The notes under the pieces were generated by a model. That model searched no databases. It was not told the DNA's origin and was given only the letters and a program-made list of their open reading frames with translations. A program made the position numbers and the translations under genes. From a virus, in IMG/VR virus record IMGVR_UViG_3300017763_000147, positions 1 through 26,973 of that record: 26,973 bases of DNA. The stretch is one strand, 5' to 3'. Position 1 is the stretch's first letter, and each line of letters starts with the position of its first letter. Shown piece by piece: positions 7,572 to 12,832 of this stretch.

Positions 7572-7614
7572 TTACATTATAGAACCACTATGTTATAGAC
7601 CTCCCCAGAGAAAA

Positions 7615-7704
7615 GGAGAGGTGGCTGAGTGGTTGAAAGCACTAGTCTTGAAAACTAGCAATCGTGCAAGCGGTTCGTGGGTTCAAATCCCACCCTCTCC
7701 GCCA
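7615..7704 (+). tRNA. tRNA-Ser(UGA)
   Basis: The full cloverleaf can be drawn. The acceptor stem GGAGAGG/CCTCTCC pairs at all seven positions, the discriminator is G, and the CCA is encoded at 7702-7704. The anticodon stem CTAGT/ACTAG (7642-7646, 7654-7658) encloses the loop CTTGAAA with anticodon TGA at 7649-7651. A long variable arm is typical of serine tRNAs, and a GTGGG/CCCAC T-stem frames TTCAAAT. It would read UCA and probably other UCN codons. It lies 44 nt after the basic mini-protein gene and converges on the integrase gene. Its loop is identical to the centre of the putative attP core at 9170-9176. Confidence 0.95.
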
Positions 7705-7719
7705 TATTAACCTAAAAAA

Positions 7720-7749
7720 AAAGCCTCATATTTAATCATACAAGGCTTT
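7720..7749 (-). terminator. Rho-independent terminator of the integrase transcript
   Basis: On the minus strand AAAGCCT pairs perfectly with AGGCTTT around a 16-nt loop, followed directly by a run of T. This is a canonical intrinsic terminator placed 36 nt after the integrase stop. It stops leftward transcription before the tRNA. On the plus strand the T-run is absent, so it should not stop rightward late transcripts. Confidence 0.75.
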
Positions 7750-7784
7750 GTAGTTAGTGGGTAGTGTGATTACACCCCCCTAAA

Positions 7785-8993
7785 TTAATTAAATAATACA
7801 GCTTCTAATTTTTTAATATCCTTCATTGCGTTTGGATCACTGAATGTACCATAACCATTTTGTGTAGTGGTATCATTGTGACCAACACGAATAGCAATAG
7901 TCTTAGGATCAACTCCCATCTTTTGCCACTGCGATATAATATATCTACGATACATTTTTGTATCAACAATATCACCAGGTATCTTTGCCTTCTTACATTT
8001 AGCATGCAATAATTCTAAAGTTGTTGAATACGATACAGAAAATAATTCACCTTCTGTAATGTCTTTTTCTTTTACATACTTAGCAAAAGGTTTCATTAAC
8101 TTTGGTGGGATAGGAACTATTCTCTCCCCTTCGTTAGCATCTTCTACTCTAAGATGTGCGGCTTTTGTTACTGAAACTTTACCAGTTCTATAATCTTTAC
8201 TTTTATTAATAGTAACTGTTAGATTACTAAAATCAAAATCTTCCGCACACAATGCAGCAGCTTCACCCCATCTCATACCAGTACAATACTGGATCATCAT
8301 TAAGAATGCACTCTCACATACTTTAGGTTGATGACCTGAGTTATGACCATAATGACCATGTGAATTTGTGCGATGACCATAACCAAAAGAATATTCTAAC
8401 TCATCCCATAATCTATGAGCTTGATTTTCTGTCATAGCAATTACATGCTTAGGTGAATAATCAATCTTTTCTTTTTTATAGGCATGATGCGGAGACACTA
8501 TCCAACTTAATTGCTCTGCTTTTTCTAAAAGATTATTTAATATAGCTCTAACTCTCTTAGCTTTTGATTTACTAAACTTATGTTTAGTTCTCATTTCTTT
8601 TAAAAAAGTATCATACCAATCACTTGTAATAACTTTTAGTGCAGTATTTCCTCCATGAGGTAATATTTTAAATAAAGCTCTTACGTTATCTTCAAGCCTA
8701 CTTTTAGATGATTCTTTCATCCCATCCTTACAAAGAGGATCCTCCTCTTTATTCATAACCTTCACATCCCAATTAGCTTGTAATTTGATATGACAATTAC
8801 TTAAACTATGCATGCCAGCAGTTTGTTTTGCAGCACCTTCATTTTTTAAAAAGCTCTGAGCAGCTTCTTTACATTCAGTTCTAGTCTTACGAAATAATGT
8901 TTTGTATTTAACTTTACCAGTTGGGTAGATCCCATCAGGTACATACACCTTAAACATTTTTTTTCCGTGATTTGTGCAAGCGATAATCTTCAT
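7785..8993 (-). CDS. int: Tyrosine recombinase, phage integrase
   Basis: From ATG 8993 (AAGGAG upstream at a good distance) the product is 402 residues; the frame is open to 9047 without a ribosome site. An N-terminal arm-binding-like region and a SAM-like core-binding domain (about 95-165) precede the catalytic domain. Arg241 lies in YCTGMRWGEAA, Arg349 in TKMYRRYI, His372 in RVGH and the nucleophile Tyr381 in QNGYGTF. The first His of the usual HxxR box appears to be Lys346. A His/Gly-rich insert at ~205-222 (GHRTNSHGHYGHNSGH) is unusual. It should catalyse site-specific integration; the putative attP lies just upstream and probably overlaps its promoter. Confidence 0.92.
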   Translation of the reverse strand: MKIIACTNHGKKMFKVYVPDGIYPTGKVKYKTLFRKTRTECKEAAQSFLKNEGAAKQTAGMHSLSNCHIKLQANWDVKVMNKEEDPLCKDGMKESSKSRLEDNVRALFKILPHGGNTALKVITSDWYDTFLKEMRTKHKFSKSKAKRVRAILNNLLEKAEQLSWIVSPHHAYKKEKIDYSPKHVIAMTENQAHRLWDELEYSFGYGHRTNSHGHYGHNSGHQPKVCESAFLMMIQYCTGMRWGEAAALCAEDFDFSNLTVTINKSKDYRTGKVSVTKAAHLRVEDANEGERIVPIPPKLMKPFAKYVKEKDITEGELFSVSYSTTLELLHAKCKKAKIPGDIVDTKMYRRYIISQWQKMGVDPKTIAIRVGHNDTTTQNGYGTFSDPNAMKDIKKLEAVLFN

Positions 8994-9052
8994 AGTACTT
9001 TCTCCTTTTCTTCTATTTAATATAAGCATTCTGTCATTAAATTGCAAGTTCT

Positions 9053-9233
9053 TGCTAAGGTTTTGCTAAGGATTAGAACAGGAAATCAATAGAATAACAA
9101 TGGTATAGGTATAGTAAAAGTACTGGTTTTCTGGGAAAAACACTAAGCATACTAAGGGTATATGTCGGTCTTGAAAACCGAAAACTTTTTTTGTTTTCTG
9201 CGTGTTTTTTTGCTTGCTAAGGTCGTGCTATGG
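9053..9233. other. attP: Putative attP: core plus paired arm-type repeats
   Basis: The core at 9165-9181 is TCGGT-CTTGAAA-ACCGA, an inverted repeat around a 7-bp centre, the usual layout of tyrosine-integrase crossover sites. Direct-repeat pairs flank it: TGCTAAGG at 9053 and 9064 on one side, and TGCTAAGG at 9215 with TGCTATGG at 9226 on the other. Each pair is spaced 11 bp (one helical turn), as in the paired arm-type sites of phage L5. The centre CTTGAAA and flanking bases (GTCTTGAAAAC) are shared exactly with the anticodon arm of the phage tRNA-Ser(UGA) at 7645-7655. The region is noncoding except for the last codons of the 9217-9606 gene. The attP function is inferred. Confidence 0.65.
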
Positions 9234-10317: not shown

Positions 10318-10547
10318 TAATTTAACTCTGGTTCCTTTCTGTCTTTGATTTGTATACCAATGTATTTGGTTCCAGATTGACTTTCATTTTTATAAGCATT
10401 AATTTTTATTTCTTCCCCAGCTTGCACATCAAAAGGTACTCGAATAGTTCCAAACCAATCATGTTTGTCTCCGTTCTCCTCTTTCTTTTTATTTGCAAAT
10501 AAATTGCCTTTGCCTGGTTGTAGTTCAAATGGTTTATTATCAGTCAT
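10317..10547 (-). CDS. Small OB-like early protein, ssDNA-related candidate
   Basis: From ATG 10547, with GGAG nine bases upstream, it encodes 76 residues. The pattern FELQPGKGNLFANKKKEENG, then HDWFGTIRVPFDVQAGEEIKI and GTKYIGIQIKD is a short beta-rich domain seen beside phage recombination genes. I interpret it as an OB-like fold, possibly a minor single-strand DNA-binding accessory. Its position immediately downstream of the annealing protein supports this. No aromatic-rich SSB tail is present. Confidence 0.55.
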   Translation of the reverse strand: MTDNKPFELQPGKGNLFANKKKEENGDKHDWFGTIRVPFDVQAGEEIKINAYKNESQSGTKYIGIQIKDRKEPELN

Positions 10548-11247
10548 ACCAATCATCTCCTTCATTTATTTTTGGTTCCCCACTCTCCATTCTCTTTTTC
10601 TCTTTTGCGTAAAGATCACTTAACTCTTTATCTTCTTCAATCGTCTTACTGTGTTCCATTAAAATTTTATTTAACTCACCCAGGTGTTTTGCTTTCAGGA
10701 TGTGCTGACTAAGTTCTTGTTTTGAAATATTGGAATTATTATTCTTAGCAGCAGCATCATCTGAAAGTTTATTATCATTAGCTATGTCATGGTTTTCCTC
10801 TTTCCTCCCAACAGCTTGCATCTCATCAGCTGATGCAAACTCGTTTCCACTAATACCAAGCATGGTCAATGCACGACCTAGGCTTCCAGTTTGTGCATTC
10901 TCTAACGCTGATGTCGTATTAACATGACTTGATCCTCGTATCTCCTCAGCTATCCCAGTAGCCAAGAATTTATTTTTGTAAAATATTTCTGTTTTACAAA
11001 TGACTGATCCAGGAAAATACATATCAATTTCTTTTCCTTGTTTAATTACTTTGTATGCATATGGCTGCACTATTTCATACGTTGATGTGTACCCAGCATC
11101 CATGCCAAAATATTTTCTAAATATATCGTTACGGATTTTTACTGGTGCGTACCATTTCTTACCAAACCTAACTAAATCTTTTTGCGTTAAATCATTTGTT
11201 TCTTTTATTGCTTCTTTTAAAACATCATTAAGCTGCCTTGTATCCAT
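10540..11247 (-). CDS. ERF/Rad52-like single-strand annealing protein
   Basis: From ATG 11247 (AAGGAG closely upstream) the product is 235 residues. Residues ~25-155 carry the core: WYAPVKIRNDIFRKYFG, CKTEIFY, then TSALENAQTGSLGRALTMLG and EFASADEMQAV. The ALENAxTxxxGRALxxLG motif is the hallmark of phage ERF and related Rad52-superfamily recombinases, which anneal complementary single strands. The C-terminal third is a charged linker ending in an acidic GDDWYD, similar to SSB-type tips. It pairs with the exonuclease encoded just upstream to form a two-component recombination system. Confidence 0.8.
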   Translation of the reverse strand: MDTRQLNDVLKEAIKETNDLTQKDLVRFGKKWYAPVKIRNDIFRKYFGMDAGYTSTYEIVQPYAYKVIKQGKEIDMYFPGSVICKTEIFYKNKFLATGIAEEIRGSSHVNTTSALENAQTGSLGRALTMLGISGNEFASADEMQAVGRKEENHDIANDNKLSDDAAAKNNNSNISKQELSQHILKAKHLGELNKILMEHSKTIEEDKELSDLYAKEKKRMESGEPKINEGDDWYD

Positions 11248-12052
11248 ACATCTCCTTTGCTTCATCTAAATATGTGTGACCGATATTCCATTGTATCTTT
11301 GTAAAATCTGGTTGAACGATCTTGAAAGGATCATCCATCTTTGCAACCTCTTGTTTAATTTTTAAATCATTAACAAGATTGTGCATTGCTTCTTTGTATT
11401 TACATGTAGTTACTTCATGGATCATAATGCCATCTTTTTCTTTGCCGTTTACATGTAAAATCCAAGTGGGTTTTTTTGTAGCATGATGATAAAATGATGC
11501 TTGCATCAAATGGTTCATCATTACTTTTGTTGGTAATGATTTTATAGAAAAACTTGCTGACCCATCTTTTCTATCTTTGTTTCTTCTTGACCAGCTAGTT
11601 TTAAGTTCAACAATTTTTGTTGGTGTTTGAAAATCTGTTCGACCTATGATTGGCAGCACTAATCCATCATCAACATAATTAACGTAGTTTTCAAAAACAA
11701 CTTTATCACCTGGTTTAATACCAAGAATTTCTAAACCTCTCATTGCATTAGCTACTGTCTGTGGTATCTGCTCTCTTTCATACTCCCATCGTTGCTCGTC
11801 TCTCCTATCATCCCACAATTTAAAATTATTATAATAAGGTTTTGGATCTACTTGATTTGTTAATCTTGCACACACTGTATCACCAACAATGTTTCCGCAT
11901 TGCATTGCAGAATTAATTTGAAACTTTCTTCGCTTCTCCTGGTTACAATATAAATATTTGTAAACATATGCATCTAAAGGCATAGTTCCTTGTGATGGAG
12001 AAAAATGATCCATTCCTCGATTTAGAAAATATGGTGGAATAGAAGACAACAT
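11228..12052 (-). CDS. PD-(D/E)XK exonuclease, RecB/Cas4-like
   Basis: This 274-residue protein has the nuclease residues Asp140 (GRTDFQ), Glu149-x-Lys151 (IVELKTSWS) and the RecB-type QxxxY at Gln184-Tyr188 (MQASFYHH). It should resect double-stranded ends to give single strands for the annealing protein encoded next, with a 20-nt overlap. There is no helicase domain or Cas4 cysteine cluster. It is the first gene of the leftward early operon. A possible -10 (TATCTA, 12064-12059) ends 6 nt before the ATG, so its mRNA may be leaderless. Confidence 0.8.
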   Translation of the reverse strand: MLSSIPPYFLNRGMDHFSPSQGTMPLDAYVYKYLYCNQEKRRKFQINSAMQCGNIVGDTVCARLTNQVDPKPYYNNFKLWDDRRDEQRWEYEREQIPQTVANAMRGLEILGIKPGDKVVFENYVNYVDDGLVLPIIGRTDFQTPTKIVELKTSWSRRNKDRKDGSASFSIKSLPTKVMMNHLMQASFYHHATKKPTWILHVNGKEKDGIMIHEVTTCKYKEAMHNLVNDLKIKQEVAKMDDPFKIVQPDFTKIQWNIGHTYLDEAKEMYGYKAA

Positions 12053-12157: not shown

Positions 12158-12781
12158 TTACTTCAAAGATAGTGGCAGATCATTCAAAGTATAGGCACAT
12201 ATGAATTTTGCTACTCTAGTTAATTCTATTGTTGTTGGATAAGCATCATAAAAATTTCTACAAATAAATTGTTGATCTGTTTTACGATGAATGATGCCAC
12301 CATAATTTTGTTGTGTATCTTTACGCTGATATATTCCAGTCATTTGATCTTTTATTCGTATTGGATTACGCCAAGCTGTATAGAAGTTTAACATATTATA
12401 ATAAACACCTTTGGCATCATTTTTATCAATTATAATAATTGTTTTTTTATCATCCCACCACCAAGAAGCAGCAAAATAACCATGCAATACTGGTCTTTCT
12501 TCAGCATCACCATAAAAATTAATTTGATTGTTTTTAACATAGCCGTTTATTTGTCTACTAACTTCTTGTGTAATAAAATCTTCTATTTTGCATTCTAAAT
12601 ATTCTGCATATTTATACAAAATATCTAAGCCAATACTTTTTTGTTTCATGTGCCTACTAACAGAACGATGATCTATTTTTAAAAAATCAGCAGCTCCTTT
12701 TTGGGATTTGCCGTTCACTTTTTCTCTTTTAAAAATTTCTGCTAAGTTATGCATGTTGTATATTTTTTTGAAAGTACTCAT
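12158..12781 (-). CDS. Phage repressor-like HTH protein
   Basis: From ATG 12781 this gives 207 residues; GTG 12811 is an upstream alternative. Residues ~20-65 form a helix-turn-helix (GKSQKGAADFLKIDHRSVSRHM) followed by LDILYKYAEYLECKIEDFI, as in phage CI-type repressors. The C-terminal ~120 residues are beta-rich (RPVLHGYFAASWWWDDKKTIIII, MTGIYQRKDT) and resemble the layout of an S24/LexA-type domain, but I see no GDSM serine motif. It is probably the lysogeny repressor; induction would then not use classical self-cleavage. It is transcribed divergently from the 12881 gene, with operator-like repeats between. Confidence 0.65.
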   Translation of the reverse strand: MSTFKKIYNMHNLAEIFKREKVNGKSQKGAADFLKIDHRSVSRHMKQKSIGLDILYKYAEYLECKIEDFITQEVSRQINGYVKNNQINFYGDAEERPVLHGYFAASWWWDDKKTIIIIDKNDAKGVYYNMLNFYTAWRNPIRIKDQMTGIYQRKDTQQNYGGIIHRKTDQQFICRNFYDAYPTTIELTRVAKFICAYTLNDLPLSLK

Positions 12782-12800
12782 AATTGATTTATTTTTATAC

Positions 12801-12832
12801 ACAATAGACACTATTTGTACACTATTACTATC
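12801..12832. promoter_or_regulatory. Operator-like repeats in front of the repressor gene
   Basis: ACACTATT occurs twice, at 12808-12815 and 12819-12826, exactly 11 bp apart; a partial copy (ACTAT) follows. AATAG-ACA-CTATT (12803-12815) is also a 13-bp inverted repeat. The minus strand has an extended -10-like TGTGTATAAA just leftward, so binding here would cover the repressor promoter. It probably serves repressor autoregulation and divergent control; inferred. Confidence 0.5.

Follow-up and report, generated by a model that had tools for sequence, protein, structure and literature searches.

A probable SAR11 phage with a short attP core matching the anticodon arm of tRNA-Ser(UGA) and its own tRNA-Ser(UGA), consistent with tRNA-dependent lysogeny

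In tRNA-dependent lysogeny, described for the actinobacteriophages Fionnbharth, LeBron, Gaia and others (Guerrero-Bustamante & Hatfull 2024, PMC10865867), the attP core is only 8–17 bp long and no tRNA is rebuilt upon integration. Instead the phages carry a tRNA of the same isotype, while relatives that restore the target tRNA gene carry none. The targets are Lys-TTT, Ile2-CAT or Leu-CAA genes in Actinobacteria, several tested experimentally; deletion showed that the phage tRNA is required, and the authors proposed that the strategy extends beyond Actinobacteria. The 57.7-kb roseophage CRP-810, according to the section on its integration (PMC11288001), has a 13-bp core in the middle of a host tRNA-Thr gene and its own tRNA-Thr beside attP, with attL and attR confirmed by PCR; that section is silent on tRNA replacement. 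Prophage-related sequences of Sinorhizobium meliloti bring a gene for a similar isoacceptor that takes the place of an inactivated tRNA gene (PMC11476347). Finally, there are pelagiphage-like genomes with an integrase and conventional attachment sites, exemplified by a 46-bp exact match to a SAR11 tRNA-Leu gene (PMC3861242).

We analysed a stretch of 26,973 bases, a whole IMG/VR virus record (27-kb contig, 34% G+C) that we term the window. Like the phages of PMC10865867, it has a tyrosine integrase, arm sites flanking a short core that falls in a host tRNA gene, and a phage tRNA of the same isotype; tRNA-restoring relatives without a tRNA of their own occur in both groups. The window family differs in its target, Ser-UGA (Ser-GCU in sisters), in being marine with probable SAR11 hosts, and in being known from sequence evidence only. 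Its sister phages, unlike those actinobacteriophages, use either the D arm or the anticodon arm of one tRNA gene. CRP-810 is likewise a marine alphaproteobacterial phage with a short mid-tRNA core and its own tRNA beside attP, but differs in size and in the tRNA used. The S. meliloti elements are alike in tRNA replacement and in belonging to an alphaproteobacterium, but host, elements and tRNA genes are different. The PMC3861242 genomes resemble the window in having an integrase and a SAR11 tRNA match, but the window core measures 15 bp rather than 46 bp, and a core of that length probably lies below detection by such long-match searches.

The window probably comes from a marine bacteriophage of SAR11 (Pelagibacterales). 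Its portal is 57–60% identical to those of the HTVC010P-type pelagiphages HTVC010P, HTVC203P, Skadi-1 and HTVC034P, and its terminase, head and tail proteins match phage families (PHROG), as expected of a member of that type. SAR11 is the most likely host, judging from the portal and from the tRNA and core matches; counting against this assignment, the core is also present outside SAR11, in MAGs of the PS1 clade. The cultured relatives differ from the window in the very features of interest here: HTVC010P, HTVC203P, HTVC034P, Skadi-1 and HTVC106P all lack an integrase of the window's family, and, as predicted for phages without it, all five lack a tRNA; the core is absent from them as well.

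In a lambda-type attP, inverted half-sites enclose a 7-bp centre and pairs of arm sites lie to either side. The predicted attP of the window is lambda-like, with a core of this form and paired arm repeats of 11-bp period at fixed distances (Table 1). The arm repeats are direct, TTGCTAWGG-like and arranged in two pairs, at offsets from the core centre of −121/−110 and +41/+52 in the six closest phages; the P-arm offsets are one base less (−120/−109) in L004 and L007. The preliminary description had placed the core at TCGGTCTTGAAAACCGA (9165–9181). This sequence is present and is the sole site in the 27 kb at up to 3 mismatches, besides its own opposite-strand reading, where shuffled sequences gave 0.03 sites on average. 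Its outermost T/A pair varies among relatives, however, so that the minimal conserved core is only the 15-mer CGGTCTTGAAAACCG. The 15-mer has a single occurrence in the window, against a mononucleotide expectation of 1.6e-5. It is invariant in 13 phage contigs while their flanks differ, and this, with the fixed arm-repeat offsets in the six closest phages, places the core beyond chance. The half-sites CGGT/ACCG make up 4 of the 5 base pairs of the tRNA-Ser(UGA) anticodon stem. Two other parts of the preliminary description stand: the core centre coincides with the tRNA-Ser(UGA) anticodon loop, and the phage DNA beyond the core is unlike the tRNA, the match being confined to the core.

The integrase gene and the tRNA gene converge. 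The likely integrase start is the ATG at 8993, the mechanical ORF extending to 9047, and the columns of the catalytic region are conserved in 13 relatives.

Table 1. Features of the window bearing on the proposed integration system
Feature	Positions	Strand	Evidence and remarks
Complete tRNA-Ser(UGA), proposed replacement tRNA	7615..7704	+	ARAGORN, single tRNA in window; CCA in DNA; anticodon stem CTAGT/ACTAG
Terminator-like hairpin between converging tRNA and integrase genes	7720..7749		Consensus scan, minus strand; weak, predicted
Tyrosine integrase	7785..8993	-	PHROG 1 integrase 4e-31; Pfam PF00589 9e-9, over cut-off
P-arm repeat pair, putative integrase arm sites	9052..9071	+	TTGCTAAGG (9052-9060) and TTGCTAAGG (9063-9071), 11 bp apart; same pair in six phages
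Putative attP core CGGTCTTGAAAACCG	9166..9180		Inverted half-sites CGGT/ACCG around 7-bp centre equal to tRNA-Ser(UGA) anticodon loop; exact copy in SAR11 tRNA-Ser(UGA) genes
CTTGAAA, proposed 7-bp overlap (crossover) region	9170..9176		Inferred from symmetry; islands in SAR11 interrupt this gene after CTTGAAA
P'-arm repeat pair, putative integrase arm sites	9214..9233	+	TTGCTAAGG (9214-9222) and GTGCTATGG (9225-9233), 11 bp apart; six phages
Candidate lysogeny repressor (helix-turn-helix)	12158..12811	-	PHROG 4 transcriptional repressor 3e-6; Pfam HTH_26 below cut-off

Candidate hosts carry the core where it was expected. The anticodon stem of SAR11 tRNA-Ser(UGA) genes is variable. A general pattern for the 5' half of the gene, which stops short of the last G of the anticodon-arm core, matched 59 of 86 SAR11 genomes, and 36 of the 86 (counted from the listed matches) carry CGGTCTTGAAAACC in tRNA-Ser(UGA). 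Exact 15-bp matches to the attP core thus occur in tRNA-Ser(UGA) genes of the presumed host group. The D-arm core used by sister phages (see below) is also present in 32 of those 36. An earlier, narrower pattern had found the core in only 17 of 397 SAR11 genomes, all with intact genes, a shortfall due to its requirement for GTGG in the D arm. In nine SAR11 genomes that we examined there is one full-length tRNA-Ser(UGA) apiece, other matches being GGA or GCU genes or fragments. When joins of the phage to six SAR11 genes were simulated with a script, a tRNA was found at neither attL nor attR. The claim that integration splits the host gene, with no functional tRNA rebuilt at either junction, thus holds in silico.

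We interpret the locus as a system for tRNA-dependent lysogeny by a temperate phage, in which the host tRNA-Ser(UGA) would be split and the phage tRNA would replace it, and we give this reading a probability of roughly 0.87. The integrase would bind the two pairs of arm repeats and the core half-sites CGGT/ACCG, and the 7-bp centre CTTGAAA would recombine with the host tRNA-Ser(UGA) gene at its identical anticodon loop. The host gene would be split and left unrestored at both junctions because attP shares only ∼15 bp with it. The phage tRNA-Ser(UGA), 1.5 kb away, would be expressed and substitute for the lost host tRNA. In the phage tRNA both half-sites of the anticodon stem are changed while base pairing is maintained, which would make it a poor substrate for the phage's own integrase. 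The mechanism is that of the preliminary description, and it appears well supported by comparison.

The phage tRNA is 96–100% identical in four relatives. L004 differs by compensatory changes in two stem pairs, at 12/24 (T-A to A-T) and at 28/44 (C-G to G-C), which fits expectation for a functional tRNA. RNA folding gave a non-cloverleaf minimum for the window tRNA; this says little, and the ARAGORN call and the compensatory changes are better evidence. The gene sits at the end of a rightward gene block. A sigma-70 scan of the window returned no more sites than shuffled sequences and none at the tRNA, and so no convincing tRNA promoter. Directly upstream of the tRNA, at 7587–7614, is the pyrimidine-rich sequence ACCTCCCCNGAGAAAA, which is kept in relatives and might base-pair with the 5' end of the tRNA.

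We assembled 26 loci, the window among them, that have a window-family integrase and a readable attP region, after removal of duplicate contigs. The wider family was recruited with a neighbouring gene (10540–11265) as bait, and profile searches added others. An integrase search of genome contigs found no relatives, the close-relative profile A1 returned the same six loci without enlarging the family, and a viral scan for the host 5' half with the core found nothing. The anticodon-arm core CGGTCTTGAAAACCG is shared by 13 of the 26 loci, including the window, and three others have an asymmetric anticodon-arm core, CGGTCTTGAAAACCAG. Six loci (L242–L245, L253 and L254) have the core CGGTTGAAAGCACCG, which corresponds to the D-arm region of tRNA-Ser(UGA); the L245 copy departs from it at a single base. 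Like the anticodon-arm core, CGGTTGAAAGCACCG is symmetric, of the form CGGT-N7-ACCG. Three more (L246–L248) combine a tRNA-Ser(GCU) with the core CGGCTTAAACCTCCG, which is similar to the D arm in the half-tRNA, of Ser(GCU) type, at the last locus, L208. Within the attP of L208 (5096–5138) is a 43-nt 5' half of this tRNA, and no tRNA gene lies between its attP and the next conserved gene; L208 is apparently a tRNA-restoring relative.

L208 apart, a complete serine tRNA lies beside the integrase in all 24 scorable loci, and its isotype fits the core in every one (UGA in 21, including the window; GCU in 3). This bears out the prediction that integrase, attP and matching serine tRNA occur together, and that a change of the core to the GCU type is accompanied by a tRNA-Ser(GCU). 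In the integrase tree L248, a GCU phage, groups within the D-arm phages as the sister of L245, which is a UGA phage (support 96/95). Nesting of the GCU branch among UGA phages indicates that the target switched in concert with the tRNA. The tree shows this isotype switch only once, making it strong logically and weak statistically. Searches of 197 and 97 genomes turned up no SAR11 tRNA-Ser(GCU) that matches the core of L221 or L208.

Between a phage tRNA and its own core there are 3–6 base differences in the 24 scored loci, as predicted if a phage tRNA always departs from its own target. All 15 scored anticodon-arm phages have the stem TAGT/ACTA, with 4 mismatches from the symmetric core that fall across both half-sites and keep pairing. 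Direct comparison for the window agrees with what had been claimed, the stem CTAGT/ACTAG sharing only GT-CTTGAAA-AC with the core. Among D-arm phages the anticodon stem varies, being exactly CGGT/ACCG in two, and their tRNAs are 3–5 bases from their own D-arm core; tRNAs of the Ser(GCU) phages are 6 bases from theirs. TAGT is found in two D-arm phages as well, and the stems are not independent of phylogeny. The data are consistent with a phage tRNA that escapes its own integrase. Selection against self-integration is suggested as the cause of the stem changes rather than proved, because those two D-arm sisters share TAGT and the loci are related.

Islands were found at the same gene in SAR11. 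A second, broken 5' half of tRNA-Ser(UGA), ending exactly after CTTGAAA, occurs in 11 of 387 SAR11 genomes and in G399; the island loci are L168, L169 and L181–L189 (in G182, G399, G142, G174, G262, G281, G290, G119, G244, G246 and G373), with another in G334. In the 11 of these 12 island loci for which flanks were compared, 1.1–7.5 kb of variable cargo lies between the half gene and an intact tRNA-Ser(UGA). These islands restore the tRNA by bringing its 5' half. Most have island-specific repeats of 11-bp period that match between the two ends. The cargo has no obvious integrase, its genes having been inspected by length and first residues only, and a PF00589 search of the 12 island genomes found mostly one recombinase per genome and none inside the islands. 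Integration at the position of the phage core does seem to occur in SAR11, given that the half genes end after CTTGAAA. A different arrangement was noted in the Rhodospirillaceae MAG ARS31 (L144), where a tRNA-Ser(UGA) 5' half is followed by unrelated DNA (L012:420–470); ARAGORN called no tRNA on the L012 contig, nor on the genome's one other contig with GTCTTGAAAAC.

On the contigs of L263 and L243 (L269–L272), the same integrase-attP-tRNA cassette accompanies a portal of another kind (PHROG 1216), which among cultured phages is closest to HTVC106P, at 43%. Exchange of the cassette between phages with different portals is possible. A broader proposal, which we offer tentatively and hold with some doubt, is that pelagiphages whose portals are unrelated exchange integrase, attP and replacement tRNA as one cassette, which switches between D and anticodon arm and between isotypes, the tRNA always altered at its own target; the SAR11 islands that seem to lack an integrase would use sites of this class too, and integrases of such phages may mobilise them.

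Conventional integration must be weighed against tRNA-dependent lysogeny. The core might be what wear has left of a once longer tRNA fragment, or attP might lie elsewhere, for instance at the phage tRNA; the host gene would then be restored and the phage tRNA would be unrelated to integration. The majority of tRNA-targeting elements do restore their target gene, as the sister phage L208 could with its 43-nt 5' half and as the SAR11 islands do with theirs. The window attP, however, lacks enough tRNA to rebuild the gene: the core ends sharply at 15 bp in every close relative, and the simulated junctions contain no tRNA. Nor would conventional integration account for arm repeats centred on the core rather than on the phage tRNA, for the lack of CGGT/ACCG half-sites in that tRNA, or for an isotype that tracks the core. 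We regard this alternative as very improbable, though it fares better than the two that follow.

Still less probable is that the tRNA serves lytic growth, through codon supply or resistance to host tRNA-cutting nucleases, and lies near the integrase by accident. Such roles have been proposed in literature cited in PMC10865867, and tRNA-Ser genes are common in large lytic phages. A lytic role does not predict a single serine tRNA beside the integrase, the absence of tRNA from integrase-less pelagiphages, or a joint switch of isotype and core. The phage tRNA may yet have a dual role, in lysogeny and in lytic growth.

Our prophage search found no homologue of the window-family integrase in 397 SAR11-order genomes or in 397 genomes of one family, the two sets overlapping and the search having no positive control. 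That the integrase serves transient integration or none (e.g. dimer resolution), with no stable lysogen and the tRNA match a by-product of site preference, would fit the lack of an integrated copy in the searched SAR11 genomes and the T7-like cyanophages, for which integration without lysogeny has reportedly been seen, but it is the least credible of the three, for a resolvase site requires neither a host-tRNA match nor a spare tRNA, complete attP structures are kept in related phages, and the window carries a repressor-like gene.

Under tRNA-dependent lysogeny, our preferred reading, the mechanism is already known and the phage group is new; the host group is probably new for it as well. Full-text literature searches, with most subscription papers outside their scope, returned no account of tRNA-dependent lysogeny in pelagiphages. 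That the strategy is already in print (PMC10865867, PMC11288001) lessens the novelty and supports the mechanism.

The window would extend tRNA-dependent lysogeny to probable phages of SAR11, among the most abundant marine bacterial groups, within a group where none of the cultured phages examined has an integrase of this kind. The customary search for long tRNA matches is likely to overlook att sites of this length, and the number of temperate pelagiphages may therefore be underestimated. In addition, the family offers a natural series, in which one gene is targeted at two positions, two isotypes are represented and one relative restores its target. Such a series should be useful for studying how integration targets change and why some phages carry a single tRNA.
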